Origin: Paenirhodobacter ferrireducens
GTDB taxonomy: Bacteria > Pseudomonadota > Alphaproteobacteria > Rhodobacterales > Rhodobacteraceae
DNA length: 64,000 nucleotides
Direction of reading: 5' to 3'
Assembly: GCF_004022265.1 (NCBI RefSeq)
Contig: NZ_SAVB01000011.1
Coordinates: 1 to 64,000 of the forward strand
The notes below the pieces were generated by a model. It did no database searches, had not been told where the DNA came from, and saw only the letters and a list, made by a program, of their open reading frames with translations. Positions 37,040 to 54,267 of the stretch are shown here, in pieces (the first letter of the stretch is position 1; each line of letters opens with the position of its first letter). Both the position numbers and the translations under genes were made by a program.

Positions 37040-38692
37040 TCAGTCCGGCAAGCTCACCGGACCAAGATCGGCCCAGCGATCGCCCGGCCCCGGATTGTCG
37101 GGTGCGCAGGCTCCGCCCATATGGGTCATGATCCCCCAAACGGCATTCAGCGCGGTCTGCACCGCTCCTTCGACCCAAGCCGGTGTCCAGCTGATGCCAT
37201 CCCCGGCCAGGAAGATGCCGCGCTGCGCTGCAGGCAGCTCCGATTGCATGAAATGGCCGTACATCCGGTGGTTGTAGCGGTAATGGCCGGGCAGCGCGCC
37301 CTTGAACGCGCCGAGGAAATTCTCATCCGCCTCCCAGCTCACGCAGATCGGATTGCCGCGGATATGGCGACGGATGTCGACCCCGGGATAGATCCGCTCA
37401 AGCGCCGAAAGCGCCAGTTCGACGCGCTTTTCCGGCCCGTAGGGCAGCAGTTTCAGCGCATCGGTCATCCAGCTGTAGGACAGGCAGATCACCGCCGGCC
37501 GCCCGGGACCGTTGTCGAAGAAATAGGTCCCCCGCGTGTTGCGATCAGTCAACGTCATCGACATCAGCGGGCGCCCGTCGGGGCCGGGATCGTTCCAGAA
37601 CGGGCGGTCTACCATCACGAAGGTCTTGGCGGCCTGCATGTAACGGGTGCGATCGAGCGCCATCCAGAGCTTCTGCGCGAACAGCGCCTCATCCACCTCG
37701 ACCGAGGTCGTCAGAAGATGGCTCTGGCAGGTGACGAGAACAGCGGCATAGTCGCGCGCGACTCCCCACTGATCGGTCACCGTCAACCCGCCCTGCGCAT
37801 TGCGCGCGATCCGGACGGCGCGGCCCAGCGTGCCGCCTCCGTTCAGCGTCGAAAGCGATGTGCCGTCCGGCCAATGCGCACAGGGAGCGACCTCGTTCCA
37901 GAGCCGGTGCAGCACCGACTCCACCCCGCCCACGATATATCTCTGGTGATCGTCGAGCTCGAGCAGGTTGACGCGCAGGATCTCCAGCATCGAATTCGGA
38001 AAGTCGCTGTCCCAGCCACCGGTCCCGAAGCCGACCTGGCCGAAGACCTCACGGTGACGGAAGCTCAGGCTCCGGAACGCCTGCGACGAGGTGACAAAGT
38101 CATAAAAGGTGCGCTCATCCCATTTCTCGACGAGCGGATCCCAGATCTGCTTGATCCGCTCCGCGTCGCGGGCCCGCACCGCCAGTGTCAGCGCCGCGAA
38201 ATCGGCATGTTCTTCCAGTGCCGCGCGATAGGCCTGCGCCACTTCGCGATACAACGGCGGAAGATCACCAGCCTCCCGGGCGAAATGGGTCTCGCCCTCG
38301 AGATCGATCACCGTCGAACCAGCCGCCGGGGTCAGCGGGTTCGGGAACGGTCGGCTTTCCATCCCGAGCTTGTCGACATAGTGATAGAAGCCGCGCGAAG
38401 AGACCGGAAAGCGCATCCCGCCCAGTTCCGCGATCACCGTCTCGGCGCCCTCGAAAGGTTCGGATCGCAACCGGCCGCCAAACTTGGCGGATTCGTATAT
38501 TTCCGGCCGCAGCCCCATCTTCATCAGTTCATGCCCGGCGATGATCCCCGCAGCCCCGGCTCCGATCACCGCCACTGGTTCGCCATGGCGCTCGACCGGG
38601 ATCCGCCCGAGCCCCGCGGGATGGTTCAGCCAGTCGTCATAGGCGAAGGGGAAGTCGGGGCCGAAGGCGGTGACGGGCTTGAGAACGGTCAT
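37040..38692 (-). CDS. davB: L-lysine 2-monooxygenase (DavB)
   Basis: 550 residues from ATG 38692. The N-terminus (FGPDFPFAYDDWLNHPAGLG) and long internal blocks (ELGGMRFPVSS, GFGTGGWDSDFPNSMLEI, ALDRTRYMQAAKTFVMVDRPFW, EGAVQTALNAVWGIM) match Pseudomonas DavB as I know it. The FAD-binding GAGAAG is at residues 44-49. DavB converts L-lysine, O2 and FAD chemistry into 5-aminopentanamide and CO2, the first step of the delta-aminovalerate route. The partner gene davA is only a fragment, divergently placed upstream. Downstream lies the degraded IS5. Product identification is strong; pathway completion here is not. Confidence 0.88.
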   Translation of the reverse strand: MTVLKPVTAFGPDFPFAYDDWLNHPAGLGRIPVERHGEPVAVIGAGAAGIIAGHELMKMGLRPEIYESAKFGGRLRSEPFEGAETVIAELGGMRFPVSSRGFYHYVDKLGMESRPFPNPLTPAAGSTVIDLEGETHFAREAGDLPPLYREVAQAYRAALEEHADFAALTLAVRARDAERIKQIWDPLVEKWDERTFYDFVTSSQAFRSLSFRHREVFGQVGFGTGGWDSDFPNSMLEILRVNLLELDDHQRYIVGGVESVLHRLWNEVAPCAHWPDGTSLSTLNGGGTLGRAVRIARNAQGGLTVTDQWGVARDYAAVLVTCQSHLLTTSVEVDEALFAQKLWMALDRTRYMQAAKTFVMVDRPFWNDPGPDGRPLMSMTLTDRNTRGTYFFDNGPGRPAVICLSYSWMTDALKLLPYGPEKRVELALSALERIYPGVDIRRHIRGNPICVSWEADENFLGAFKGALPGHYRYNHRMYGHFMQSELPAAQRGIFLAGDGISWTPAWVEGAVQTALNAVWGIMTHMGGACAPDNPGPGDRWADLGPVSLPD

Positions 38693-38765
38693 CTCAGATC
38701 GGGCTTCCTGTTGGGCCAAAAAGGCGTAACTGTTTGATACACTATATATTTTCTGGAGGCCGGAA

Positions 38766-38876
38766 GTGAAGCTGGCACTTTGGCAGATGCCGCCGACAGA
38801 TGGGCGGATCGAGGCCGATTTTTCGGCATTTTGTATGCAGCTGCAGGCTGCCACCGCTGCCGGCGCAAAGTTCCGA
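38766..38876 (+). pseudogene. davA-like carbon-nitrogen hydrolase, N-terminal fragment
   Basis: From GTG 38766 the frame reads MKLALWQMPPTDGRIEAD and later QLQAATAAGAK, the usual beginning of nitrilase-superfamily amidases such as DavA (5-aminopentanamidase). After that the family sequence is lost: the catalytic Glu, Lys and Cys regions are absent. The remaining 38877-39117 shows no recognisable gene in any frame. The fragment is divergent from davB across a 73-bp AT-rich spacer, the natural place for a shared promoter. Confidence 0.65.
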
Positions 38877-39117: not shown

Positions 39118-40695
39118 TCAGGCCCTGGAGAGCCGACGATAGGTGATGCCGCGCGCCAGCCAGCACCCGAGCGTCAGCCCCTCAACCCGGCCCGCGGCAT
39201 CCCGACGGACCCGCAATGTCCATTCCCCGGGCGGTGCAGCATCCATCGCGCGGCGGCTGGTTACCGCCCACAGATCCTGCGCCAGCGGATACATCCGCTC
39301 CATCGGCCCGGCACCCAACATCCCTTCGAACCCGATGCTCGCCGCGCCGTCGCGGGCCTCAATCTCCAGCGCCGCGCCGAGCGCGTCGGAGTGGTAGCGC
39401 CCGGAGATTTCCGCCGCATCGGCCCAGATCAGCGGCTCCAGCCGCGTGGCGCGGAGGGTCAGGTTCTCGGCCCGGCGCTCCATCAGGAGAAAATCCCCTT
39501 CGCGCCGCAGCGCAAGGTCGGGGGCTTCGGCACAGTTTTCCCCGGAGATGCGCAACACCACCGGCGAGACGGCATAATGCAGCCGCACCCCCCCCGGCAC
39601 GGCACGGGTCCGCAGGAACAGATCACGCCCGTGATCGAACCAGAGCCCGTTCCAGCCCTCGCCGGTGGCGGCGAGCGGCGGCGAGGCATGTTCCGCCGTC
39701 CCCAACGCCGCGGTCATCAGCCCTTCGGCTGCGCGCATCGCGCTGGCCTCATGGTTGAAGAGCACGACCACCGACAAGCGCTCCGACGCCAGATGCAGCC
39801 GATAGGAACAGAACCCCCGCACCCCGCCGCCATGGGCGGTCACGGCCCGGCCCGCATGATGGTAGCGGCGTAACCCATAGCCATAGCTGGCAACCGTCCC
39901 ATCGGCGAAAGAGACCGGCGCGGAAATCCGGTTGTAGAGCCCCTGAGGATCGTCGCGCGTGGCGTCGATGTGCTGCTCCCAGGCCAGCATATCCTCGAGC
40001 GAGGCGGAAACGCCTGAATCCCCAAACCAGGTGAGCGCGCTCTCGGCCGGCACGAAGCCCACCTCGTCATTGCCTTCGTAGCCGATCACGCCATCAAGGC
40101 GCGTGGCCATGTCAGGCGCGAGGCAGGCCGTCGGCATGCCGGCGGGCCGGAAGATGCGCTCGTCCAGCAGGTCGCCGAAATCGCGCCCGGTGGCGCGGCA
40201 GATCAACTCGGCGAGCAGGCGGAAATTGCCGTTCGAATAGGAGAAATGCGCCCCCGGCGGGAACTGCCCGTCCTGCGCCTGCGCCAGTAACGCCACCCCA
40301 TCGGCCGCAGTGAACCGCCCCTCGGGGGCCGCGCCGTGCAGAACGGTCAGCGCCCAGTAGTCGCGCAGACCGGACTGGTTGTGGCACAGCTGGGCAATGG
40401 TCGGCAGTGGTCCACGGAACCGCGGCAGCAGCTCGGGAAGACGCGGTGCCAGCACCTCGGGATCGGGAAACAGATCCAGAAGCAGCGCGCAGGTCATCTG
40501 TTTCGAGATCGAGCAGATCGGCATCCGCCGCGCCGAGGTCATCGGCACGCGCGCCGCGGTGTCGGCATAGCCCCAGGCGCGCCGGGCGATCACGCGCCCG
40601 CGATGGACGACACCGGCCACCCCTGCGGGGCCGCGATACTGGTCGGGCAGCAGATCCAGCGCGCGTTCAAGCGCCGAGATGTCAACTTCGCGCAT
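39118..40695 (-). CDS. dap: D-aminopeptidase (serine peptidase S12 family)
   Basis: 525 residues from ATG 40695. The penicillin-recognising fold motifs coincide with those of Ochrobactrum anthropi DAP: S62-x-x-K65 (CSISKQ), Y153-S-N155 and H288-G-G. The total length is also like DAP (about 520), including the C-terminal antiparallel domains. The enzyme releases N-terminal D-amino acids from peptides and amides in the cytoplasm. It is the last gene of the minus-strand operon with the peptide importer and the LysA-like decarboxylase, in line with processing of imported D-amino-acid-containing peptides. Confidence 0.88.
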   Translation of the reverse strand: MREVDISALERALDLLPDQYRGPAGVAGVVHRGRVIARRAWGYADTAARVPMTSARRMPICSISKQMTCALLLDLFPDPEVLAPRLPELLPRFRGPLPTIAQLCHNQSGLRDYWALTVLHGAAPEGRFTAADGVALLAQAQDGQFPPGAHFSYSNGNFRLLAELICRATGRDFGDLLDERIFRPAGMPTACLAPDMATRLDGVIGYEGNDEVGFVPAESALTWFGDSGVSASLEDMLAWEQHIDATRDDPQGLYNRISAPVSFADGTVASYGYGLRRYHHAGRAVTAHGGGVRGFCSYRLHLASERLSVVVLFNHEASAMRAAEGLMTAALGTAEHASPPLAATGEGWNGLWFDHGRDLFLRTRAVPGGVRLHYAVSPVVLRISGENCAEAPDLALRREGDFLLMERRAENLTLRATRLEPLIWADAAEISGRYHSDALGAALEIEARDGAASIGFEGMLGAGPMERMYPLAQDLWAVTSRRAMDAAPPGEWTLRVRRDAAGRVEGLTLGCWLARGITYRRLSRA

Positions 40696-40744
40696 TCGTT
40701 CCCCCGCGGTTTGCGGTCTGTCCGATCGCTTGTCCCGTGACGAG

Positions 40745-41260
40745 CTATTCCGCCGCGCGGAAACAGAGCCTGGTGTCCGGCCGTGCCAGGGCCAGGAAGT
40801 CGAGCAGGTCATCGCGGCTCAGGGCCGCGCAACCGGCGGTGGAGCCATAGCCCGGGCTTGCCACATGCAGGAAGATCGCACTGCCCGCGCCGGGCACCAC
40901 GGGATCGTCATTCTGCCCCAGCACGACGACGATGTCGTAGAGATCATCGCGACGCCACAGCTCCTCGTGGCTGGCCTCGAAGGGCAGCTTCACCGGGCGG
41001 TTGTAGTCGGGGTGATCCGGCGCGTCGCACCAGCCGTCGTCGACCGCGATGACGGAGGTCGGAAAGGCCGAGACCGGCGCGGCACCGAGCTTGTCGGCGC
41101 GCCAGAGCACGCGCCGGATCGGCCAGCAGCCGAGCGGGCTCACCCCGTCGCCCTCGGCGCGCTTCTCGGCGATGCCGTTGCGGCCGACCGCTGCACGCCA
41201 AACGTGCTCACCGAACCGCGCCTGCCAGTTCTCTCCCTGTCTGGTTACGATCAGATCCAT
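40745..41260 (-). CDS. L,D-transpeptidase-fold (YkuD) protein without signal peptide
   Basis: 171 residues from ATG 41260. The catalytic stretch HVASPGYGSTAGCAAL carries the His and Cys of the YkuD fold, preceded by DPVVPGAGSAIFL. The protein has no signal peptide or membrane segment, so it may act in the cytoplasm as an L,D-carboxypeptidase-like amidohydrolase on imported peptides rather than as a cell-wall cross-linker. It starts 8 nt after the upstream ATPase gene ends, within the same operon. Confidence 0.82.
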   Translation of the reverse strand: MDLIVTRQGENWQARFGEHVWRAAVGRNGIAEKRAEGDGVSPLGCWPIRRVLWRADKLGAAPVSAFPTSVIAVDDGWCDAPDHPDYNRPVKLPFEASHEELWRRDDLYDIVVVLGQNDDPVVPGAGSAIFLHVASPGYGSTAGCAALSRDDLLDFLALARPDTRLCFRAAE

Positions 41261-41268
41261 GGTTTCTC

Positions 41269-42258
41269 TCAGTTTTCCAGCGGGAAATGGCAGGCCACGG
41301 TGTGGCCGGCGTGGTTCTGCAAGGCGGGGTCTTCCACCCGGCAGATGTCGCGTGCAAAGGGACAGCGCGTGTGGAACCGGCACCCCGGGGGCAGTGCCAT
41401 CGGGCTCGGGATCTCGCCCTGCATCATCGGGCGCTCGCCTCCGCGTGCGCGCGGGTCGGGGCGCGGCACGGCGGCCATCAGCAGCATCGTATAGGGATGC
41501 AGGGGCCGGGCGAAGATCTCTTCGGTGGTGCCGACCTCGACCAGCCGGCCCAGGAACATCACCCCCACCCGATCGGCGAACTGGCGCACCACGGCAAGAT
41601 CGTGGGTGATGAAGAAATAGGTCAGCTTCAGCTGATCCTGCAAATCGGCGAGCAGGTTCAGAACCTGGGCCTGGATCGACACGTCGAGCGCCGAGACGCT
41701 TTCGTCACAGACCACGAAATCGGGTTTGTTCGCCAGCGCGCGCGCGATGCCGATGCGCTGGCGTTGCCCGCCCGAAAACTGATGCGGATAATTGCGCAGA
41801 TATTGCGTGCGCAGCCCGACCAGCTCCAGCAGCTCGGCGCAGCGCTCGCGGATCTCGGCGGGGGTGCCGTATCCGTGACTGCGCAGCGGTTCAGCGAGGA
41901 TCTGCTCGATCCGCATGCGCGGGTTCAGCGAGGCATAGGGGTCCTGGAACACGATCTGCATTTTCTTGCGCAGGGCCCGCATCTCCCCTTCGCCAAGCCC
42001 GGTCAGTTCGGTGCCGTCATAGACAATCTCACCCGAGGTCGGTTCCTGCAGGCGCAGCATCACCCGCCCGAGCGTGGTCTTGCCGCAACCCGATTCGCCC
42101 ACCAGCGCAAAGGTCTCGCGGGCACGGATCTCCAGCGTGACGCCATCGACCGCGCGCACGACCCGCGACGGGCGCCCGGCAAACCCGCCGCCCACATGGA
42201 AATGCTTGGTCAGTGCGCGGGTCGAGAGAACGATTTCGGATCCGGTGTCGGTCGTCAT
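41269..42258 (-). CDS. Peptide ABC importer ATP-binding protein, DppF/OppF-like
   Basis: 329 residues from ATG 42258 ([20 protein letters not shown]). It has Walker A GESGCGKT, signature [15 protein letters not shown] and H-loop FITHDLAV. The C-terminal oligopeptide-transport extension contains cysteines ([16 protein letters not shown]). It pairs with the ATPase at 42255-43262, overlapping it by 4 nt. It powers the importer whose permeases are at 43267-45089. Confidence 0.92.
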
Positions 42259-43262
42259 GGCGCGTCTCCTTGACTCAGGGCCTCTTGCGGGCAGTTGAGC
42301 CAGCAGCGACTGGCATGGGTCGGCCCGAGCGGCTTCAGCTCGGGCGCCCGCTGGCAAATCGGCATCGCCTCACCGCAGCGCGGGCCGAAGCGGCATCCCT
42401 CGGGCAGCTTGGCGAGGTTCGGCACCATGCCCGGGATCGAGGGCATCCGCCGCGAGACCCGCGGCTCGGTCGCGCGCGGGATCGAGGCCAGCAGCCCGCG
42501 GGTATAGGGGTGCGCGGGGCGCTCGAACAACTCGAACACATCGGCCTGTTCGACGATCTGGCCCGCATACATCACGTTCACCTCGTCGCACATCTCGGCG
42601 ATGATCCCCAGGTCATGCGTGATCATGATGATCGAGGTTCCCACCCGGTCGCGCAGATCACGCATCAGCCGCAAGATCTGAGCCTGCGTGGTCACGTCGA
42701 GTGCGGTCGTCGGCTCATCGGCGATCAGCAGCTTCGGCTCGCAGATCAGCCCCATGGCGATCATCGCCCGCTGCCGCAACCCGCCCGACAACTGGTGCGG
42801 ATAGGCATCGAGCCGGGTCTTCGGCTCGGGGATGCCGACCAGCTCGAACATCTCCAGCACCCGCGCCCGGATCGCCCGGCGGCCCAGTCCCTGATGAATC
42901 GCCAGCGGCTCGCCGACCTGTTCCCAGACCTTGCGCACCGGGTTCAGGCTGGTCATCGGTTCCTGGAACACCATCGCGATATCGCGACCGCGGATCTCGC
43001 GCATCCCGGCGGGGCCCAGTTTCGACAGGTCCTTGCCGTCGAGCAGGATCGAGCGTGCGCTCACCCGGCCCTGCGGCTGCGGCACCAGCCCCATCAGCGA
43101 CAGCGCCGTCATGCTCTTGCCCGAGCCGCTTTCTCCCACAAGCCCGACGATGCGGCCCCGCCCGACGTCAAAGGACAGCTCGTCCAGCACCCGGACATCA
43201 CCGCGCCCGCCGCTGAAATCGGTGCAAAGGCCGCGCACAGAGAGGATCGTGTCCTGCGTCAT
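42255..43262 (-). CDS. Peptide ABC importer ATP-binding protein, DppD/OppD-like
   Basis: 335 residues with Walker A GESGSGKS, signature [15 protein letters not shown], Walker [14 protein letters not shown]-loop MITHDLG and a cysteine-containing C-terminal extension ([16 protein letters not shown]). It is one of two ATPases of a di/oligopeptide-type importer. It lies 4 nt after the permease gene and overlaps the second ATPase gene by 4 nt. Confidence 0.92.
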
Positions 43263-43266
43263 CGTC

Positions 43267-44157
43267 CTAGTCCTTCATCGAGGGGTCGAGGGCATCGCGC
43301 AGCCCGTCGCCGATGAAATTGAAGGCGAGCACTGCCAGCAGGATCGCGACCCCCGGAGAGATCGCCACGCTCGGGTTCTGGAACATGTATTCCTTCCCCT
43401 TCGCCACCAAGAGCCCCCAGCTCGCCGCCGGCGGCTGCACCCCCACGCCCAGGAAGGAGAGGCTCGATTCCCACATGATCGCCTCGGGGATCGACAGCGA
43501 GAAGAGCACGATCAGTGTCGGCACCACATTGGGGAAGATATGGTCGAACATGATCCGGCCGCGCGAGGTGCCATTGGCATGGGCCGCCTCGACGAATTCC
43601 TTCTCGCGCAGCGCGAGGGTCTGCGCCCGCACGACCCGCGCGACCGAGGCCCAGCCGACCAGGGCGAGGGCAAGGAAGATGTTCAGCAGGTTCGCCCCCA
43701 GTGTGTACATCACCACCATCGCCAGCAGCAGCGAGGGGAAGGCGATCATCATGTCGGCCAGCCGCATCACCACGAAATCGGTCTTGCCGCCCAAATAGCC
43801 GCTCAGGATCCCCATGATGGTGCCGATCAACAGCGAGATCAGGCTGGGCACGATGCCCACGACAAGCGAGATCCGCGCCCCGTACAGGATGCGGGTCAGC
43901 ACATCGCGGCCGAAATTGTCGGTCCCCAGCCAATAGGTGGTCGAGGGCGGCAGCAACTGCTCGTCGAGCGCGACGCGATAGGGATCATGCGGGCTGATCC
44001 AGGGCACGAAGACCGCGCAGAACACCAGAAGCAGAATGAAGATCAGCCCCGCCATCGCCATGCGGTTGCGCCTAAAGGCGCGGACAGTGTCGCGCAGGAA
44101 GCTCGCTTCATCGGGTGTCTCCGGAGTAGCGGCCGAATCGACAGAACGGGTCATCAT
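43267..44157 (-). CDS. Peptide ABC importer permease, DppC/OppC-like
   Basis: 296 residues. The N-terminal extension and first helix (RRNRMAMAGLIFILLLVF) and the conserved loop GTDNFGRDVLTRILYGARISL are typical of DppC/OppC. The EAA motif (EAAHANGTSRGRIMFDHIFPN) lies in the C-terminal half. The start codon overlaps the stop of the dppB-like gene by 4 nt. Confidence 0.92.
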   Translation of the reverse strand: MMTRSVDSAATPETPDEASFLRDTVRAFRRNRMAMAGLIFILLLVFCAVFVPWISPHDPYRVALDEQLLPPSTTYWLGTDNFGRDVLTRILYGARISLVVGIVPSLISLLIGTIMGILSGYLGGKTDFVVMRLADMMIAFPSLLLAMVVMYTLGANLLNIFLALALVGWASVARVVRAQTLALREKEFVEAAHANGTSRGRIMFDHIFPNVVPTLIVLFSLSIPEAIMWESSLSFLGVGVQPPAASWGLLVAKGKEYMFQNPSVAISPGVAILLAVLAFNFIGDGLRDALDPSMKD

Positions 44158-45089
44158 GCCTCTTTCCTCATCTGGGCGCGGATGCGGGGATCAAGGATCG
44201 AATAGAGAATGTCGGCCACCAGATTCCCGAGGATCACCAGCGCCGTTGCAAAGAGCACCGCGCCCTGCAGCAGCGGCATGTCACGCGATGAGATCGCGCT
44301 TACGGTGATCCGGCCGACGCCGGGGATCGAGAAGATCGCCTCGGTGATGACCGCGCCGGACAACAGGCTCGCCACCTGGATCGCCATGATCGTCACCACA
44401 GGGATCAGGGCGTTCTTCAGCGCATGGCGGGTGATGACGCCGGTCTCGCGCAGCCCCTTGGCCCGCGCGGTGCGGATGAAATCGAGCCGCATCACCTCGA
44501 GCAGGCTCGACCGTGTCAGCCGCGCGATGACCCCGGCCGAGGACCAGCCCAGAACGATGGCCGGCAGGATCATGTACTTCCAGCCGTAAAACCCCGACAC
44601 CGGCAGCAGCTTCAGCTTCATCGCGAAGATGTATTGAAACAGCAGTGCCGACCAGAAGATCGGCATCGACACGCCCAGAAGCGAAAACCCCATGAAGAAC
44701 CGGTCAAGCAGACTGTCGCGGCGCACCGCCGAGAGGATGCCCGCCGGAATACCGATGATCCACGACACCAGCGCGGCGCAGACCGCGAGAGACAAGGTGT
44801 TCGGAAACGCTTTCAGGATCAGGTCCGTCACCGGTCGGTTCAGCTTGATCGAGACGCCAAGATCGCCCTGCAACGCATTCCACAGGAACCGGAAATAGCG
44901 CACCACCATCGGGTCATCGAGATGCATCTGGGCCCGCACCCGCGCGATCACGTCGGGGCTTGCATGTTCTCGCATCATCAGCTCGATCGGGTCACCGGGC
45001 ACCACGTTCATCATCAAAAACAGGATGATCGTGATCCCGATCAGCACCGGGATCGACACGAGGATGCGTCGGAGCGTGAACATCAACAT
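44154..45089 (-). CDS. Peptide ABC importer permease, DppB/OppB-like
   Basis: About 311 residues from ATG 45089 (MLMFTLRRILVSIPVLIG); GAAAGAG upstream favours this over ATG 45083. DppB features seen are FLMMNVVPGDPIELMM after helix 1 and the EAA-type loop RTARAKGLRETGVITRHALKNALIPVV. It forms the heteromeric channel with the permease at 43267. There are 65 nt between it and the binding-protein gene, enough for an mRNA-processing site or weak hairpin but with none obvious. Confidence 0.92.
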   Translation of the reverse strand: MLMFTLRRILVSIPVLIGITIILFLMMNVVPGDPIELMMREHASPDVIARVRAQMHLDDPMVVRYFRFLWNALQGDLGVSIKLNRPVTDLILKAFPNTLSLAVCAALVSWIIGIPAGILSAVRRDSLLDRFFMGFSLLGVSMPIFWSALLFQYIFAMKLKLLPVSGFYGWKYMILPAIVLGWSSAGVIARLTRSSLLEVMRLDFIRTARAKGLRETGVITRHALKNALIPVVTIMAIQVASLLSGAVITEAIFSIPGVGRITVSAISSRDMPLLQGAVLFATALVILGNLVADILYSILDPRIRAQMRKEA

Positions 45090-45154
45090 CAGTGGAGTGC
45101 TCTTTCTGTGAGGGCAGCGGACGCGTTCGGCCGGAACGGGCAGCCGGGGCGCCG

Positions 45155-46738
45155 TTATTCCACTTCCACGTTGTAATAGCTCATGTCGCTCCAGCCGTTC
45201 CACGGAACGATGAAATGCTTCACCCGGGGTTGCACGACGAAGCTGTGATCGAGGCTGAACAGTGGCACCCAGGCGGCATCCGTATCGACGATCCGCGCCG
45301 TCAGATCCTGATAGAGCTTGCAGCGCTCCGCCGGGTCGGTCATCCCGCGCGCCTTCTCGATCGCGGCGAAGACTTCGGGGTCATTGTTGTTGTAACCGCG
45401 CGTCTTGCTGCCCGTTTCGGAGAAGAAGGTGTAGAAGAAGTTGTCGGGATCGTTGAAATCGGCTGACCAGACCTGCGTGTAGGCATCCGAATCCCCCGCC
45501 TTGCGCGCCGCCAGATATGCCGCCTCGTCGGTGGTGATGATCTTCGCCTTGAACCCGGCCTCGGCAACCTGCGCCTGGATGATCTGGTTCATGTCGGACC
45601 AGCGCGACGACCAGCTGGAGACCTGTTGCAGATTGATCTCGACCCCGTCGGGATAGCCTGCTTCGGTCAGCAGCTCCTTCGCCTTCACCGGATCGTATGC
45701 GATCGGCTCGGCCGGCGCATAGCAGCGCAGCCCGCGCGGCATCACGCCATCCTCGAGCTTGCCCTTGCCGTAGAAGTTCTTGTCGAGAATGGTTTGCCGG
45801 TCGATCGACATCTGGAACGCCTTGCGGACGCGGGGATCGTCGAAGGGCTTCTTCAGCTGGTTGATGTTGTAATAGTAGATGCCGACGCGCGGACCCGAGA
45901 CGATGTGGTCCTTCCACTGGTCGGCCCCGTAGAAGTAGGGCGTTTGAGTCGGGGCGAAGTCCATGTCGAACACGTCGATCTCATCGGATTCGAACAGCAT
46001 CCGCAGCGTATCGGGATCAGAGACCACGCGGATCAGAAGCCGGTCGAGCTTCGGCCGGCCGCGCCAGTAGTCGTCATTCGCCTCCAGCATCTCGCTGTCG
46101 TTCAGCGTGTAGTCACGCAAGATGAAGGGGCCGGTGCCATTGGTGGTTTCCGGGGTCAGACCGAACTGGTCGCCCGCCGCCTCGGTGAAGGCACGGTTGT
46201 AGATCGAGGCCCCGGGTGCCGCGAGCAGCGCGAGAAAGGCCGCGTAGGGCTTGGTCAGGGTGATCTGCACGGTCTGGTCGTCGAGGGCCTTCAGCCCCGA
46301 CACGCTGTCGGCCTTGCCGTCGAGCCGTTCCTCGGCGCCGGCGATGAAGGTCAGGATGTCGGTGTTCAGCGCCTTCGTCGCGGGATTGAGCATCCGGTCG
46401 AAGGTATAGACCACGTCGTCGGCGGTCAGCACTGCACCGTTGTGGAACTTCACGTCCTTGCGCAGATGGAACGTGTAGGTCAGTCCGTCATCCGAGACGT
46501 CCCAGCGTTCGGCCAGCCCGGGGACCAGCGCCGATTGCCCCGGCCCGGTGGTCTCCGACTCTACCAGTCGGTCGAAGATGTTCAGCGGCAGCGTGTAGAA
46601 ATCCGTCGTCATCTGCGCGTCGGCGCTCTTCGGATCCTCGGGATAGGACACGCGCAGCATATTCTCGGCAAAGGCGGGTGACAGCAGCATGAGGCTGGTC
46701 AGGCCCGTGGCAAGTAGCAGGTTCAGTTTCCTGGTCAT
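45155..46738 (-). CDS. Peptide ABC importer periplasmic binding protein, DppA/OppA-like
   Basis: 527 residues with a Sec signal peptide ending SPAFA-EN. The SBP family 5 pattern is clear (LVPGLAERWDVSDDGLTYTFHLRKDVKFHNG; FDRMLNP; GTGPFILRDY). It binds peptides or similar ligands in the periplasm. Its start codon overlaps the stop of the LysA-like gene by 4 nt, directly coupling capture of the ligand with the decarboxylase. This argues that the ligand contains diaminopimelate, D-lysine or D-ornithine. Confidence 0.9.
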   Translation of the reverse strand: MTRKLNLLLATGLTSLMLLSPAFAENMLRVSYPEDPKSADAQMTTDFYTLPLNIFDRLVESETTGPGQSALVPGLAERWDVSDDGLTYTFHLRKDVKFHNGAVLTADDVVYTFDRMLNPATKALNTDILTFIAGAEERLDGKADSVSGLKALDDQTVQITLTKPYAAFLALLAAPGASIYNRAFTEAAGDQFGLTPETTNGTGPFILRDYTLNDSEMLEANDDYWRGRPKLDRLLIRVVSDPDTLRMLFESDEIDVFDMDFAPTQTPYFYGADQWKDHIVSGPRVGIYYYNINQLKKPFDDPRVRKAFQMSIDRQTILDKNFYGKGKLEDGVMPRGLRCYAPAEPIAYDPVKAKELLTEAGYPDGVEINLQQVSSWSSRWSDMNQIIQAQVAEAGFKAKIITTDEAAYLAARKAGDSDAYTQVWSADFNDPDNFFYTFFSETGSKTRGYNNNDPEVFAAIEKARGMTDPAERCKLYQDLTARIVDTDAAWVPLFSLDHSFVVQPRVKHFIVPWNGWSDMSYYNVEVE

Positions 46739-48147
46739 TCGATACCTCGTTCTGTTCGTGTTGCCGTCTGTCCGGCGTCTTGCGACTTTTCTTGTGCATG
46801 GGATGCCTGTCGCACAGCCTCCCCCGTTCTCTGTCCGACCGCACCAGGGCCCTGCCAGGCACCGGGCGTCTCGAGCCGCAGCGCCGTGCGGATCTGTACC
46901 CTGCGGCGGATGATCCGGAACCTGTCGCCCTCCACCAAAACCTCGGGGATCAGATCCCGCGAATTGTAGGTGGACGACATCGCGGCACCATAGGCGCCGG
47001 CATCCCGGAACGCCAGAAGGTCCCCGGCCCGCAGCGCGCCGAGATCCGGATAGGTTCCGAAATCGTCCGAGCTTTCGCAGACCGGCCCGACCAGGCGCAC
47101 GAGCGGCATCGCCGGCGCAGGGCGGGGCTCATGGACCGTCGTGACGGGATGATGCGCGTCGTAGAGCGCCGGCCGCATCAGATCATTCATCGCCGCGTCC
47201 AGAATGGCGAAATCGGCGCCATCCCCGCGCTTCAGATAGTGGACCCCGGCCACCAGCACCCCGGCTTGCGCGCAAAGCCAGCGCCCCGGTTCAATGGTGA
47301 GGGCCAGATCCATGTCTCCGACCGTTTGCCCGATGATCCGCGCATAATCTGCGAGGTCGGGACCCGGGCCTCCGGCGCCTGCAATGCCCAGACCTCCGCC
47401 GAGATCCAGCCGGTCGACCTGCTGCCCTGCTGCGCGGAGATCGCGGACCAACGCAGCCATTGCACTCCAGGCAAGGCGGAAGGGGGTGAGATCGAGGATC
47501 TGCGAGCCGATATGCACCGCCAGACCAACCACATGCAATTCAGGCCGCGCCGCGGCCGCCGCATAAAGCGCCGGGATCTCGTTGATCGCGATGCCGAACT
47601 TGCTGTCCTTGCGGGCGGTGGTGATCTTGGCATGGGTCAGCGCATCGACATCCGGATTGACCCGCAGCGCCACTGGCGCGCGCAGCCCAAGCGCGCGTGC
47701 CGCCGTCGCCACCGCGTCGAGCTCTGCCGGGCTTTCGACATTGATCTGGCCCAGCCCGGCCCGCAGCGCGCTGCGGATCTCGGCGTCGCTCTTGCCGACC
47801 CCCGAGAAGATGATGCGCCCTGCCGGCGTGCCCGCCGCCCGCGCCCGCGCCATCTCGCCGCCCGAAACGATGTCCATCCCGGCGCCGAGTGCCGCGAATT
47901 CTGCCAGCACGTTGATGTTGCTGTTGGCCTTGACGGCAAAGCAGACCTCGACGCGATGCGGGGCGACCGCCTCGGTCAGAGCGCAATAATGGTGTCGCAG
48001 AGCGGTCACGGAATAGGCGTAGAACGGGGTTCCGACCGCGGCCGCGATCCGGTCCAGCGGCACGTCGTCGATCGACAGGATGCCCTCGTGGCGGCTGAAC
48101 CACGGGCTGTCCGGGCGGAGGGCGAGGGGCGACTTTGAGCGGGGCAT
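46735..48147 (-). CDS. LysA-like PLP decarboxylase (diaminopimelate or D-lysine/D-ornithine decarboxylase)
   Basis: About 470 residues from ATG 48147 (GAAGAGG upstream), longer than typical LysA by a C-terminal tail of about 50 residues. It is a fold-type III PLP enzyme: PLP lysine in CFAVKANSN, glycine-rich HIGSQILDLTPF, DLGGGLGIAG, substrate motif CESSDDFG, and GAYGAAMSSTYNSRD near the end. The family decarboxylates meso-diaminopimelate at its D centre to give L-lysine; a related branch acts on D-lysine or D-ornithine. As first gene of the peptide-import operon, divergent from a LysR resembling E. coli LysR, it is more likely catabolic than a housekeeping lysine-biosynthesis copy. Confidence 0.85.
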   Translation of the reverse strand: MPRSKSPLALRPDSPWFSRHEGILSIDDVPLDRIAAAVGTPFYAYSVTALRHHYCALTEAVAPHRVEVCFAVKANSNINVLAEFAALGAGMDIVSGGEMARARAAGTPAGRIIFSGVGKSDAEIRSALRAGLGQINVESPAELDAVATAARALGLRAPVALRVNPDVDALTHAKITTARKDSKFGIAINEIPALYAAAAARPELHVVGLAVHIGSQILDLTPFRLAWSAMAALVRDLRAAGQQVDRLDLGGGLGIAGAGGPGPDLADYARIIGQTVGDMDLALTIEPGRWLCAQAGVLVAGVHYLKRGDGADFAILDAAMNDLMRPALYDAHHPVTTVHEPRPAPAMPLVRLVGPVCESSDDFGTYPDLGALRAGDLLAFRDAGAYGAAMSSTYNSRDLIPEVLVEGDRFRIIRRRVQIRTALRLETPGAWQGPGAVGQRTGEAVRQASHAQEKSQDAGQTATRTERGIE

Positions 48148-48201
48148 AGGGCCTCTTCGGTTGAAGGATCGGCCCATCTTTCCCTGATGCATCCCTGCGT
48201 A

Positions 48202-48218
48202 CATAATTCTATATTGTG
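48202..48218. promoter_or_regulatory. Candidate LysR binding dyad between the lysA-like and lysR-like genes
   Basis: The 115-bp divergent spacer contains an AT-rich interrupted dyad CA-n-AAT-N5-ATT-n-TG, the usual type of LysR-family binding site. It is placed between the two start codons (48147 and 48263). The symmetry is partial, and binding is inferred. Confidence 0.35.
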
Positions 48219-48262
48219 GTCTCTTATCCACTTTCGATATGCATCGCCGCCGGGACCAGGAA

Positions 48263-49195
48263 ATGAAACTGAATCAGCGTCAGATCGACGTGTTCAACGC
48301 GGTGATGCTGAACAAGAGTATCACCGCGGCTGCCGCGAAATTAGGCAGTTCGCAGCCGACGCTCAGCCGCGAGCTGCGCGAGATCGAGGCGCGGCTGGGG
48401 TTCGACCTGTTCCTGCGGTTCGGCAAGCGCCTGACGCCGACGGAACAGGCGCTGCTGCTGCACGAGGTCGTGCTGCGCTCCTTCGTCGGGCTTGACGAGA
48501 TCGGGCGCGCCGCCTCGGCGATCCGCAGCCATAATGCCGCGAGTTTCCGCATCGCCAGCATTCCGGCCTATGCGGAATCGATCATCCCGCGGGTGATCCA
48601 GAGATGCCTGAAATCGCCGCAAGCCCTGCATTTCTCGATTCATTCGCATGAAGAGCCATCGCTGCGGACCGAGATGACGACGCAGGTCTTCGATCTGTGC
48701 ATGGCCGAGAGCCTGTTCGAACGCGACAGCGCCACAAGCGAGACGATATTCGTCGGCGACATGGTCTGCGTGCTGCCTCAGGACCATCCGCTCGCCCCGC
48801 GCAAGATCCTGTCGCCGCAGGACTTCGCCGGGCAGCCCTTCCTCTATTTCAGCCAGCACGACCCCTACCGCCACAAGCTCGATCTCATGTTCCAGGCGGC
48901 GGGGGTCGCACGGGACTATGCCGCCGAGACGACCACCGCCTCTGGGATCTGCGCCATGGTGGCGGCGGGGCTGGGGGTTTCGATCATCAACCCGCTGACC
49001 GCAGCCAGCCAGATCGGCGGGCGGGTCGTGTTCCGCCGCCTGTCACACCCCGTCCCCTACCAGTTGTCGCTCTGGCATCCCGGGCGCTCGAGCCGGCTCG
49101 TGCAGATACACCGCGTTATCGCCGCCCTGCGCGAGGTGGCCGCCGAGATGTCCGAGGAGCTCGAAGGTTTCTTGCGGCGCGATGTCCCCTCCTGA
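48263..49195 (+). CDS. LysR-family regulator resembling E. coli LysR (activator of lysA)
   Basis: About 310 residues from ATG 48263 (MKLNQRQIDVFNAVML); ATG 48239 is a possible alternative. The HTH SQPTLSRELREIEARLGFDLF and the effector-domain stretches VCVLPQDHPLA, DPYRHKLD, SGICAMVAAGLGVSIINPLTA closely follow the pattern of E. coli LysR, which activates lysA in response to diaminopimelate. Here too it is divergent from a lysA-like gene, but that gene heads a peptide-import operon. The inference is that the operon is induced by diaminopimelate or a related amino acid. Confidence 0.87.
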   Translation: MKLNQRQIDVFNAVMLNKSITAAAAKLGSSQPTLSRELREIEARLGFDLFLRFGKRLTPTEQALLLHEVVLRSFVGLDEIGRAASAIRSHNAASFRIASIPAYAESIIPRVIQRCLKSPQALHFSIHSHEEPSLRTEMTTQVFDLCMAESLFERDSATSETIFVGDMVCVLPQDHPLAPRKILSPQDFAGQPFLYFSQHDPYRHKLDLMFQAAGVARDYAAETTTASGICAMVAAGLGVSIINPLTAASQIGGRVVFRRLSHPVPYQLSLWHPGRSSRLVQIHRVIAALREVAAEMSEELEGFLRRDVPS

Positions 49196-49266: not shown

Positions 49267-50322
49267 TCACCTCACTAAGGCCTTGCCATTCAGCGCGATC
49301 CGTTCCGCCAGCCTGGCGGCCTGGCGGCCCGGCACCAGAGGACGTGCCGGCGAGGGCCTCACACCGGCCGCAAGCTGCGGGAAGAGTGCGAAGATTTCAT
49401 CGCGCGCCGCAGCGCTGACAGACTTCAGCGCCTCGGAGCCGGAATACAGGCTTTCGGTCACCGCACCGCCCGAGAACACCAGCTGATGCCCGTCGAACAG
49501 GATGTGCCAATAGGTGACACCTGCCATCGCCTCGGCGATCTCGACCCCGTCGAGCGCGAGGAGATGCTTTGCCGCAACGAGGACTTCCGCCTCCCCGAAC
49601 ATGCGTTCCGCCACCGCGGCCTGCACCAGGACCCGATGTTGCGGAGAAACGACAAGATCGACTTCGGGAACCCCCGCCCCCAAGGCGCCCGAACGAATAC
49701 GGATCGGCCGCAGCTGCGGGCTCATGGCGAGGTCTCCCGACGACAGATGCCGCGATCCGATCCAGCGGATCGGCTGATAGCCATCATCCACGGTCAGGAC
49801 GGAGTCCCCGACCCGAAGCGCCTCCACCGCGATCTCGCCACGCCGCGTCCTGATCCGCGTGCCGCCGGCGAAACAGGGCACTCCGCCGCCCGGGTAGTAT
49901 TGTGCATTGGCGTAGAAATGCAGCGTGGTGTTCACCGTTCCGGTGATCTGCGTCAGCAGATCCGGCGGTCCTTCCGGATAAATCAGGTACTGGATCGAGC
50001 CCGACGCGACCAGGATCACGGGGTAGCGGACAACAAGGCCGCTCACGATCCCCCCCATGTAACCGACGCCCAGTACCGTTGCATTGCTCAGGTCGGGGAT
50101 GGTGTCGAGGATGGGGATATTGGTGTTGTCATGGTCGATCGTCTCGCCGGCAGAGATGCCGCCGTTCCCGTTCTGGTCGTCGGCGGTCAGCGTACCCGTC
50201 TGGGTAATCAGCGACCCCAGGTTGAGCGGGTAGTTCACCTGGTACTCGTTGCCGATCGAGAAATCGATCTGGATCAGGCCCGAGACCCTCTGGATTGCAG
50301 TTCCAGACATGTCAAAGCTCAT
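49267..50322 (-). CDS. Hint-domain (intein/hedgehog-type) protein
   Basis: About 351 residues from ATG 50322 (AAGGGG 7 nt upstream). The N-terminal half is rich in Gly, Thr, Asn and Asp (LTADDQNGNGGISAGETIDHD) and resembles secreted calcium-binding or RTX-associated passengers. The second half is a Hint domain starting PCFAGGTRIRTRRG with the self-processing Cys, then VEALRVGDSVLTVDDGYQPIRWIG and the conserved SPQHRVLV. Such proteins are common in marine Rhodobacteraceae and may self-cleave or be secreted by a type I route. No partner gene is adjacent. Confidence 0.82.
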   Translation of the reverse strand: MSFDMSGTAIQRVSGLIQIDFSIGNEYQVNYPLNLGSLITQTGTLTADDQNGNGGISAGETIDHDNTNIPILDTIPDLSNATVLGVGYMGGIVSGLVVRYPVILVASGSIQYLIYPEGPPDLLTQITGTVNTTLHFYANAQYYPGGGVPCFAGGTRIRTRRGEIAVEALRVGDSVLTVDDGYQPIRWIGSRHLSSGDLAMSPQLRPIRIRSGALGAGVPEVDLVVSPQHRVLVQAAVAERMFGEAEVLVAAKHLLALDGVEIAEAMAGVTYWHILFDGHQLVFSGGAVTESLYSGSEALKSVSAAARDEIFALFPQLAAGVRPSPARPLVPGRQAARLAERIALNGKALVR

Positions 50323-50561
50323 CTGCGCACCCCTTACAATGTCGAGAGGCATACACCGCCGTCTCGTTACCCGAATGACAGTCAAAACAGTTGCAGAGCC
50401 CCGCCCCGGTCCGAAACAGCCTCTGAGGCAAGCCGCCGTCAAACCATCCCGGACCTGAACGGTGCCTTAAAGTAGCATCGAAAATGCAACCGCTGAAGCA
50501 TGGGAAACGCCTAAATTCATGGGCGGAGCAGAGCGTCGGGTCTTCGCGGCGAGATCCCGCC

Positions 50562-51935: not shown

Positions 51936-53129
51936 ATGACGGAACAGACCCGGATTGACCGGCTCGTGGGCGAACATGCCGCGAAGCTATCGGAGCGTTT
52001 GCTGGCGCATCGCACGCAGCTGTTCCCGCCCGATGCGCACAAGCAGCTGCGCCGCTTCACCTCGGGTGAGGTCGCCGATCTGCTCGGCGTCAAGGACGCC
52101 TATCTGCGCAAGCTCAGCCTCGAGGGCCGCGGCCCGCAGCCCGAGACCGGCCCCGGCGGCCGTCGCCTCTACACCCCCGACGACATCATGGCCCTGCGCC
52201 GGCTGCTCGAACAGGGCGCGAAGGTGCCGGGCACCTACCTGCCCGGCCGCCGCACGCACCCCGACGGCACCCGCGACCACCTGCAGGTCATCACCGTCAT
52301 CAATTTCAAGGGCGGCTCGGGCAAGACCACCACCGCCGCGCATCTGGCGCAGAAGACCGCGCTCGACGGCTATCGGGTGCTGGCGATCGACCTCGATCCG
52401 CAGGCCTCGCTCTCGGCGCTGCACGGGTTCCAGCCGGAATTCGACCTGCTCGACGGCGGCACGCTCTATGACGCGATCCGCTATGACGAGCCGGTCGCCC
52501 TGCGCGAGGTGATCCGCAAGACCTATTTCACCAATCTCGACCTGATCCCGGGCAACCTCGATCTGATGGAGTTCGAGCACGACACCCCCCGTGTCCTCGC
52601 CGCGCGCTCCGGTCAGATGTTCTTTACCAGGATCGCGGAGAAACTGGCAGAGGTCGAGGCCGACTATGACCTCGTCATCATCGACTGCCCGCCGCAGCTT
52701 GGGTTCCTGACCATGAGTGCGCTCTCCGCCGCCACTGCCGTTCTCGTCACCGTGCATCCGCAGATGCTCGACGTGATGTCGATGTGCCAGTTCCTGCTGA
52801 TGACCTCGAACCTGCTCGGCGTCGTCGCCGATGCGGGCGGCAACATGGAATACGACTGGCTGCGCTATGTCATCACCCGTTACGAGCCCGGCGACGGGCC
52901 GCAAAACCAGATGGTCAGCTTCATGCGCGCCCTTTTCGGCGAGCATGTGCTGAACCACACGGTGCTGAAATCGACCGCGATCTCGGATGCCGGGATCACC
53001 AAGCAGACGCTCTACGAGATCGACAAGGCGCAGTTCACCCGCGCCACCTATGACCGCGCGATGGAAAGCCTGAACGCGGTCAATGGCGAGATCGAGGGGC
53101 TGATCCAGAAAGCATGGGGGCGCGGATGA
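51936..53129 (+). CDS. repA: RepA, ParA-type plasmid partition ATPase
   Basis: 397 residues, normal for RepA of repABC replicons. An N-terminal HTH-like region (FTSGEVADLLGVKDAYLRKLS, GGRRLYTPDDI) precedes a ParA/Soj ATPase with the deviant Walker A KGGSGKTT, DLDPQASLS and IIDCPPQLG. RepA drives segregation with RepB and parS and autorepresses the operon. It overlaps repB by 4 nt (ATGA at 53126-53129). Confidence 0.95.
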   Translation: MTEQTRIDRLVGEHAAKLSERLLAHRTQLFPPDAHKQLRRFTSGEVADLLGVKDAYLRKLSLEGRGPQPETGPGGRRLYTPDDIMALRRLLEQGAKVPGTYLPGRRTHPDGTRDHLQVITVINFKGGSGKTTTAAHLAQKTALDGYRVLAIDLDPQASLSALHGFQPEFDLLDGGTLYDAIRYDEPVALREVIRKTYFTNLDLIPGNLDLMEFEHDTPRVLAARSGQMFFTRIAEKLAEVEADYDLVIIDCPPQLGFLTMSALSAATAVLVTVHPQMLDVMSMCQFLLMTSNLLGVVADAGGNMEYDWLRYVITRYEPGDGPQNQMVSFMRALFGEHVLNHTVLKSTAISDAGITKQTLYEIDKAQFTRATYDRAMESLNAVNGEIEGLIQKAWGRG

Positions 53130-54094
53130 GCCGGAAGAACCTTCTCAGCGGGCTGATGGGCCCGACCGATCCGCAGGCCCCCTCCCCTGCCCCCGCTCCG
53201 GGCCCTTCGGTCTCGGGGCTCGATCCGGACCGGCCGCGCTTCGCCCGTGGCGCGATCGGCGCGATCTCGCGCTCGGTCGCCGATCTGCAGGCCCGCGCGC
53301 TGGTCGAGATCGACCCGGCGCTGATCGACGCGGGCGGCGTGCAGGACCGGCTGGAAAGCGACGATGCCGAGGATGCGGCGCTGCGCGCCTCGATCGCCGA
53401 ATACGGCCAGCAGGTGCCGGTGCTGGTGCGCCCGCATCCCTCGGCCGAGGGCCGCTATCAGATCGTCTATGGCCGCCGCCGGGTGCTCGCCCTGCGCGAC
53501 CTCGGCCGTCCGGTCAAGGCGCTGGTGCGGGCGCTCGATGACCGCGACCTGTTGATCGCGCAGGGGCAGGAAAACACCGCCCGCCGCGATCTCTCCTTCA
53601 TCGAGAAGGCCAGTTTCGCCCGGCAGATGCTGGCGGCGGGCTATGACCGCAAGATCATCGGCGACACGCTGTCGATGGACAAGACCCTGATTTCGCGTCT
53701 GCTTTCCGTGGCCGAGCGGGTCGCGCCCGAGGTCGTCGAGGCGATCGGTGCCGCGCCCTCGGTGGGCCGTGACCGCTGGCTGGCGCTTGCCGATGCGATC
53801 GAGGCGGGCGACCATGCCGCCTCGGACGTCGTGGCGATGGTGAACCTCTCGGGCGGGGCGACCTCGGACGCGCGGTTCGAGGCGGCGCTTGCCTATGCCA
53901 AGGGGCCGAAACCCGCCCGCAACCGCCCTGCCCCGCAGCGCATCGACAGCGTGAACGGCATGCCGCTGGCCGAGGCCGAGCGTCGCGGCGGCCGCCTGAC
54001 CCTGCGCTTCGAGAAGCGCCTCGACCGTGGGTTCGAGGACTGGCTTCTGACCGAACTTCCCGCGCTGCACCGCAAGTGGAGCGAGGGCGCATGA
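53126..54094 (+). CDS. repB: RepB, ParB-type plasmid partition protein
   Basis: 322 residues from ATG 53126 (MSRKNLLSGLMG). The ParB/Srx box GQQVPVLVRPHP and YGRRRVLALRDLG, the motif QGQENTARRDLSFIEKA and a central HTH (DRKIIGDTLSMDKTLISRLLSVAE) are all present. It binds the parS sites at 55453 and 55490. It is co-translated with repA. Confidence 0.95.
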   Translation: MSRKNLLSGLMGPTDPQAPSPAPAPGPSVSGLDPDRPRFARGAIGAISRSVADLQARALVEIDPALIDAGGVQDRLESDDAEDAALRASIAEYGQQVPVLVRPHPSAEGRYQIVYGRRRVLALRDLGRPVKALVRALDDRDLLIAQGQENTARRDLSFIEKASFARQMLAAGYDRKIIGDTLSMDKTLISRLLSVAERVAPEVVEAIGAAPSVGRDRWLALADAIEAGDHAASDVVAMVNLSGGATSDARFEAALAYAKGPKPARNRPAPQRIDSVNGMPLAEAERRGGRLTLRFEKRLDRGFEDWLLTELPALHRKWSEGA

Positions 54095-54136
54095 TCCCGT
54101 CACCCGCAACCAAGGAGGCACGACCCGGCCAATAGA

Positions 54137-54170
54137 GAAAAGCCCCCCAGGACATGACATCCCGAGAGGC
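54137..54170 (-). terminator. Intrinsic terminator of the antisense RNA
   Basis: In the minus-strand RNA GCCUCUCGGGA pairs with UCCUGGGGGGC (11 bp including GU pairs, 7-nt loop), followed by UUUUC. In the opposite, sense mRNA these arms can pair only with mismatches, as expected for a ctRNA-specific terminator. Confidence 0.75.
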
Positions 54171-54186
54171 CCGTTCTTGATCTAGC
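54137..54186 (-). ncRNA. repABC antisense counter-transcribed RNA (ctRNA / incA)
   Basis: On the minus strand, opposite the repB-repC spacer, a promoter (54221-54193) would start a roughly 50-nt RNA at about 54186. The RNA contains part of a 7-bp dyad (TTCTTGA ... TCAAGAA, 54174-54195) and ends in an 11-bp hairpin (54170/54142, GU pairs included) followed by UUUUC at 54141-54137. This matches the position, size and layout of the ctRNA that represses repC translation and causes incompatibility in repABC plasmids. Confidence 0.8.
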
Positions 54187-54192
54187 ACTCAA

Positions 54193-54221
54193 GAAATACA
54201 GGCCCGACGAATCGCTGTCAA
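54193..54221 (-). promoter_or_regulatory. Promoter of the repABC antisense RNA
   Basis: On the minus strand a perfect -35 TTGACA (54221-54216) is followed after 17 nt by a -10-like TATTTC (54198-54193). The -35 lies inside GCTGTCAAC (plus, 54214-54222), which is identical to nine bases of the parS palindrome. RepB could therefore touch this promoter. Confidence 0.65.
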
Positions 54222-54267
54222 CATCGCATCTGCGGTGGCCGATTTCTTTTTGCCTCGTGAAGACCGA

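Follow-up and report, generated by a model that had tools for sequence, protein, structure and literature searches.

What is the function of a gene run in which a peptide importer stands beside a diaminopimelate decarboxylase, a YkuD-fold protein and a D-aminopeptidase? This question is raised by positions 39118-49195 of a 64,000-nucleotide stretch of Paenirhodobacter ferrireducens DNA (NZ_SAVB01000011.1, positions 1 to 64,000), hereafter called the window. Gene calls and family models revealed there a tightly packed minus-strand run, lysA-SBP-dppBCDF-ykuD-dap (SBP, substrate-binding protein), with lysR divergent from it, and all eight packed genes and the divergent regulator proposed in an initial annotation of the DNA were recovered. 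From dap to lysA, successive genes are spaced by 52, 8, -1, 4, -4, 65 and -4 bp. Judging from these genes, we consider with good confidence that the run is an inducible operon for the catabolism of short peptides that contain meso-diaminopimelate (mDAP) and derive from the bacterial cell wall. Computation showed its gene content, a conserved gene order, a second clade of LysA, retained residues and matching operators.

Conservation of the gene set was assessed by a profile scan with a four-row D-aminopeptidase alignment and two peptide patterns, over a collection of one genome per species (84,980 species). The scan returned 36 named loci, all located through dap, so that the frequency of dap itself is uninformative. 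The results showed that linkage of lysA and dap, the lack of which had been named beforehand as grounds for abandoning the catabolic reading, is conserved: the complete nine-gene set was present in identical order and orientation at 15 of the 36 loci (including L070, with an in-frame stop in lysA), with hosts in two families, Rhodobacteraceae and Rhizobiaceae, by record titles. Protein identity to the window counterparts ranged from 58% to 91% in these complete loci, which, with hosts in two families, indicates that the operon does not stem from one recent transfer, and the recurrence of nine genes in one order exceeds chance. The most persistent pair was ykuD immediately before dap (24 of 36 loci), and four loci (L056, L060, L080 and L086) kept this pair alone. 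Among the incomplete loci, L055 and L062 are cut by a contig end, L052 is internally deleted or misassembled, L074 is without lysR-lysA, and L065 (Gemmobacter aquaticus) has lysR, lysA, ykuD and dap without a close importer. The ratio of nonsynonymous to synonymous substitution rates (dN/dS) was 0.00-0.11 for the nine genes (three pairs, all Rhizobiaceae). Matches to dap were also found in 33 records of a plasmid collection; one of the three contexts inspected, a plasmid of Rhizobium sp. ACO-34A, carries the same nine genes flanked by AraC and LacI regulator genes, its ykuD being annotated as a hypothetical protein. Single-protein queries for close relatives detected none of the window D-aminopeptidase or of the L040 SBP in viral contigs, by which viral carriage was ruled out at that range. 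At L037-L039, the Dpp/Opp importers next to the D-aminopeptidase genes are of different kinds, and lysA and ykuD are missing, contexts that suggest other D-peptide cargoes.

The operon LysA (46735-48147, minus strand) is a second diaminopimelate decarboxylase. It scored 417.8-418.3 bits against TIGR01048 (cut-off 297.9) and has 34% identity to LysA of E. coli, while a separate lysA of the same genome lies on contig C57 (464.8 bits). At least two LysA-model matches (E 1e-60) were present in 15 of 15 complete-operon genomes, compared to 0 of 12 genomes with dap only. A tree was built from 17 operon rows, the broken L070 lysA being left out, and 28 other rows, namely the C57 copy and, of the 30 matches with the highest scores, the 27 that remained after three short extractions were left out; the operon copies formed a clade of their own with support of 100/100. 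Operon and other LysAs (17 vs 27 rows) had 113 near-fixed positions in common and 12 that differed, and catalytic and substrate residues were retained, the common positions including K73, H212, EPGR289, R325, Y329, C357, E358 and Y386. These (the lysine of pyridoxal phosphate (PLP), the EPGR arginine, the RPxLY arginine and tyrosine, CE and AYG/YN) we take to serve PLP and both ends of mDAP. The DokD model NF052544 gave 135.3 bits, far under its cut-off of 700, and because of this score an identity as D-lysine/D-ornithine decarboxylase is unlikely and was rejected. Two further LysA matches over the cut-off, G266:C135:3786-5000 and G276:C4:1294-2517, lie outside the operon loci analysed and are absent from the tree.

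The divergent regulator (48239-49195, plus strand; its start is probably 48263) was identified as LysR-type and, as had been proposed, resembles E. coli LysR, with 41% identity over 281 residues, although the cut-off of the family model is narrowly missed. E. coli LysR is described as activating lysA in a diaminopimelate-dependent manner, with a predicted site ATATC-n5-GATAT (PMC5002191). Between lysR and lysA, 18 loci have a block in common, [CT]ATATCR-N5-GNATRA, in which ATATC is invariant and is thereby common to the block and the predicted E. coli site; in the window, the putative LysR operator is CATATCGAAAGTGGATAA (48224-48241, minus strand). The scan with a matrix built from operon sites alone covered 204.5 kb of the own genome, the L065 locus and a 5-kb stretch from E. 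coli. In the own sequence, the highest score was found at a LysR promoter on contig C1 (28.7), followed by the window site (26.6; itself in the matrix) and a next score of 15.2. The Gemmobacter counterpart of the C1 site scored 30.8, and in the E. coli stretch, which surrounds lysA-lysR, both top scores (8.5 and 8.2) were weak and lay in the intergenic region. A whole-genome search with a pattern written after both sites had been seen gave just two mismatch-free sites, those of the window and C1.

The C1 site stands in front of a second cluster (L090, contig C1:25000-44900; 639-18715), whose LysR scored 307.9 against NF008239, over the cut-off. This cluster contains a beta-lactamase2-type serine hydrolase, another SBP-DppBCDF importer, a YkuD-AstE/AspA fusion protein, a second lysine oxidase homologue and an M55 D-aminopeptidase. 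Past a minus-strand LysR gene of L090 lie a D-amino-acid transaminase (over cut-off), an amino-acid ATP-binding cassette (ABC) importer, an S58 peptidase and another M55 enzyme, which may be part of the same unit. In Gemmobacter aquaticus (L065), the first part of the second cluster, up to the fusion protein, adjoins the reduced operon, with an operator match before both; the fusion was found at E 1e-40 in one of 248 family genomes, the own genome. Two clusters with matching operators and with enzymes for wall peptides and D-amino acids make the wall-peptide reading stronger than it was from the window alone. Together, the conserved linkage, the likeness to LysR, the common half-site and the second cluster with its matching operator support the initial proposal of cell-wall-peptide catabolism.

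Judged by its family, every enzyme of the operon would act either at a D centre or on a bond of the wall. The D-aminopeptidase (39118-40695, minus strand) is of the Ochrobactrum DAP type, with a penicillin-binding-protein (PBP)-fold domain and domain B: it scored 662.6 bits against NF009622 (PRK13128; cut-off 443), matched both PF00144 and PF07930, and matched 1ei5 over its full length (483.8 bits). The residues S62/K65, Y153 and H288 had been pointed out correctly and were invariant in 38 of 38 aligned D-aminopeptidases (the window, the 36 named loci and one plasmid); presumably they are the catalytic Ser, Lys, Tyr and His.

The YkuD-fold protein (40745-41260, minus strand) scored 34.5 bits against PF03734 (cut-off 23.4), and H132, G143 and C144 were invariant in 22 YkuD rows. 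Its N-terminus, MDLIV, has no hydrophobic leader visible by inspection, which agrees with its earlier description as a signal-less protein of L,D-transpeptidase fold. The residue two positions after the catalytic Cys was Ala, Ser or Thr in 26 YkuD rows and never Arg. Many transpeptidases are described as having Arg at this position, and DpaA as having Cys143 and Ala145 (PMC10653827); lack of the transpeptidase Arg is expected of YkuD L,D-carboxypeptidases of the ElsL, Csd6 and Pgp2 type. Acinetobacter ElsL, described as a cytosolic YkuD L,D-carboxypeptidase that serves recycling, is likewise a short YkuD-domain protein with a catalytic Cys and no secretion signal, a likeness drawn from its description (PMC8649774). 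The fold model reached a predicted local distance difference test (pLDDT) score of 82.1, and the best 50 of 79 structure matches were all YkuD-fold enzymes by title; no match of the fold search was at E 0.001 or better, the best match in the PDB being at E 0.017. Sequence-profile searches for solved structures gave none with 4 rows and Pgp2 as the best, at E 0.11, with 22 rows. A search of the own genome gave no match to LdcA of the S66 type. We predict that the YkuD protein is a cytosolic L,D-carboxypeptidase/endopeptidase, and this is the weakest step of the mechanism proposed below.

The importer is a complete SBP-BCDF set on the minus strand: the Dpp/Opp-type family 5 SBP (45155-46738; PF00496, 341 bits; 70-88% identity to 12 operon homologues), the DppB-like (44154-45089; PF00528, PF19300) and DppC-like (43267-44157; PF00528, PF12911) permeases, and the DppD-like (42255-43262) and DppF-like (41269-42255) ATPases (both PF00005, PF08352). 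Against the DppA model NF043070, the SBP scored 221.2 bits, under the cut-off of 1005, and its structure model is poor (pLDDT 57.3). D427 of the SBP aligns with Asp408 of DppA, which we assume to be a ligand contact together with Arg355. No sugar- or gamma-glutamyl-cleaving enzyme was present among the ten proteins examined by Pfam, and because of this short diaminopimelate peptides are a likelier cargo than whole muropeptides. Import of muropeptide fragments, as first suggested, is accordingly favoured in its short-peptide form and less likely for whole muropeptides.

The ligand, bond specificities, order of steps and inducer that we infer are the following. SBP-DppBCDF would import mDAP-containing peptides, for example mDAP-D-Ala, D-Ala-mDAP or short fragments of the stem. 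In the cytosol, the YkuD protein would hydrolyse the bond that follows the L centre of mDAP. This would set D-Ala free or, on a cross-linked peptide, yield a D-Ala-mDAP piece, whose N-terminal D-Ala the D-aminopeptidase would then take off. The dedicated LysA would decarboxylate the freed mDAP to L-lysine, and a lysine oxidase/monooxygenase homologue would start lysine breakdown in this genome. The E. coli LysR-like regulator would sense mDAP and activate the operon through its operator, a similar operator standing before the second cluster. More tentatively, and with less than even likelihood in our estimate, the genes may encode a previously undescribed cytosolic dismantling of cross-links, in which YkuD cuts mDAP-(D-Ala), the D-aminopeptidase frees mDAP and the dedicated LysA converts it to lysine. 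If this route is true, the D-aminopeptidase family would gain a natural substrate, and the two clusters would constitute an alphaproteobacterial diaminopimelate regulon controlled by LysR proteins like that of E. coli.

The lysine oxidase/monooxygenase homologue (DavB-type; 37040-38692, minus strand) lies just past dap, is a probable accessory gene and had been absent from the initial annotation. It matched 3we0, the L-AAO/MOG of Pseudomonas sp. AIU 813, with 871 bits over residues 5-550, and as a full-length homologue it retains, by our own numbering, equivalents of that enzyme's Asp238 and Trp235, which are described as reading lysine (PMC5832979). In the window, the predicted oxidase differs from the Pseudomonas enzyme in adjoining a wall-peptide operon. 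It adjoins the operon in three loci (the window, L053 and L059), and at E 1e-60 it was found in two of the 36 named genomes, adjoining the operon in both. The 248 family genomes hold 12 copies, one in the window, one in the own second cluster and ten elsewhere; the last lie away from lysA, ykuD and dap, which rules out the oxidase as a core operon member. It is most plausibly a module for lysine breakdown that has been added to the operon on more than one occasion. The neighbour was checked for five of the ten other copies and was a DavA-kind carbon-nitrogen hydrolase in all five. Between the oxidase and dap, the window holds a DavA-like amidase gene remnant (38763-38873, plus strand; about 37 codons) with 70% identity to an intact carbon-nitrogen hydrolase, which adjoins a lysine oxidase in another genome. 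Such remnants were seen beside the oxidase in two genomes, in the window and at L139 11147-11662, whereas the five neighbours checked in other genomes are intact.

Several results weigh against an mDAP-peptide operon. At 12 of the 36 loci dap stands without lysA, ykuD or a close importer (two of them, L073 and L079, have a more distant Dpp/Opp importer nearby), and it was without the operon in two of the three plasmid contexts inspected (Paracoccus aminophilus and Rhodobacter sp. CZR27). Moreover, the operon is rare. Of the 248 family genomes, 4 had an operon-type ykuD (at least 65% identity) and 9 an over-cut-off dap, because of which we conclude that the operon is an accessory function. The window LysR scored 277.2 bits, under the NF008239 (PRK11013) cut-off of 288, this still being its best NCBIfam match, and the second LysR of L065 is also under the cut-off (264.6). 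No residue of the SBP aligns with Arg355 of DppA, and for this reason the cargo may differ from plain dipeptides. As a structure query, the YkuD protein gave template modelling (TM) scores of 0.45 to the carboxypeptidase Pgp2, its highest, and 0.44 to a transpeptidase, both weak matches, and none of the ten lysine oxidase copies elsewhere is within about 9 kb of a lysA, ykuD or dap gene. As a separate observation, 21 further family genomes of the 248 encode YkuD proteins 42-49% identical to the operon YkuD.

The same genes might serve recycling and not feeding, with products of the cell's own wall turnover returned to metabolism by an operon that replaces AmpG and LdcA functions in AmpG-less orders. 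AmpG is reported as absent in Rhizobiales and Rhodobacterales, with A. tumefaciens seemingly without cytosolic L,D-carboxypeptidase activity (PMC9790009), and the missing S66 LdcA match in the own genome fits this view. We nevertheless consider recycling unlikely: the operon is patchy among the family genomes, as the count for operon-type ykuD shows, and lies here on a replicon with repABC-like genes; LysA uses up mDAP and does not return it to the wall; and AmpG-less muropeptide import in A. tumefaciens is already ascribed to YejBEF-YepA (PMC9790009).

It is likewise improbable, in our judgement, that the system scavenges D-amino-acid peptides in general (D-Ala, D-Ser and Gly peptides) and that its LysA has a different diamino acid as substrate. 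The dap-only third of the named loci and the more distant Dpp/Opp importers near dap in L073, L079 and L037-L039 are in its favour, but LysA retains the residues of housekeeping LysAs and is far from DokD, and the likeness to LysR and the YkuD partner favour mDAP. Finally, a backup of lysine biosynthesis with an importer for free mDAP and with ykuD and dap as hitchhikers would explain the divergent LysR-lysA pair, as in E. coli, but is very improbable given the additional lysA in this genome and the at least two LysA matches in each complete-operon genome, the persistence of ykuD-dap, which outlasts the other genes in four loci, and the purifying selection on both genes in the three Rhizobiaceae pairs.

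The window is part of contig C2 (137.5 kb) of the own genome. Genes resembling repABC (ParA, RepB and RP-C) lie at 51936-55449 on the same contig as the operon, and because of this unit at 51.9-55.4 kb contig C2, operon included, is probably a plasmid or secondary replicon. Just past lysR, a protein with a Hint domain (Hint_2 family) is encoded at 49267-50442. Elsewhere in the window, a 2049-residue protein (19936-26085) has metallophosphatase, cadherin-like and RTX repeat matches; ABC and HlyD genes (15771-18817) shortly precede its gene, and it is likely type I secreted.

Among known systems, the dpp-ykf region of B. subtilis, to which the D-aminopeptidase DppA belongs, also contains a peptide importer, and an M55 control search gave a match in B. 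subtilis. In that region the ykfA-D genes adjoin dppB-E, and YkfA is described as an L,D-carboxypeptidase, which likewise places an importer beside an L,D-carboxypeptidase and wall-peptide peptidases (PMC2954226). The present operon differs in its PBP-fold D-aminopeptidase and YkuD-fold L,D-enzyme and in having lysA and an E. coli LysR-like regulator, and, unlike dpp-ykf, no YkfB or YkfC homologue was among the Pfam matches of the ten cluster proteins. Its best explanation is that of an operon analogous to dpp-ykf but composed of different enzymes. E. coli lysR-lysA has the same divergent LysR and LysA with the half-site ATATC (PMC5002191), but it is biosynthetic and no importer or peptidases adjoin it, whereas the LysA of the window is the second one of its genome. 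For marine Pseudomonadota, LysA is reported as the key enzyme of diaminopimelate metabolism on the strength of gene deletion, assays and induction by diaminopimelate. LysA would have the same role here, but the substrate in that report is free diaminopimelate and not peptides, and its main text contains none of the terms transporter, operon, LysR or gene cluster (PMC9602339).

LysA-based catabolism of free diaminopimelate (PMC9602339) and an importer beside wall peptidases in B. subtilis (PMC2954226) are therefore already described. By titles and abstract starts, this operon was not found described in the open-licence PMC literature, and what appears to be new is that a LysA of its own, a YkuD protein and a PBP-fold D-aminopeptidase are joined in one operon whose regulator resembles E. 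coli LysR. The YkuD protein is a candidate cytosolic L,D-carboxypeptidase for AmpG-less orders, in a genome where LdcA of the S66 type is unmatched. Wall peptides constitute a large reservoir of organic matter that is difficult to degrade, and the operon would add a proposed importer, peptide-cutting steps, a regulator and an operator to LysA-based diaminopimelate catabolism, while offering a natural role for the D-aminopeptidase family.

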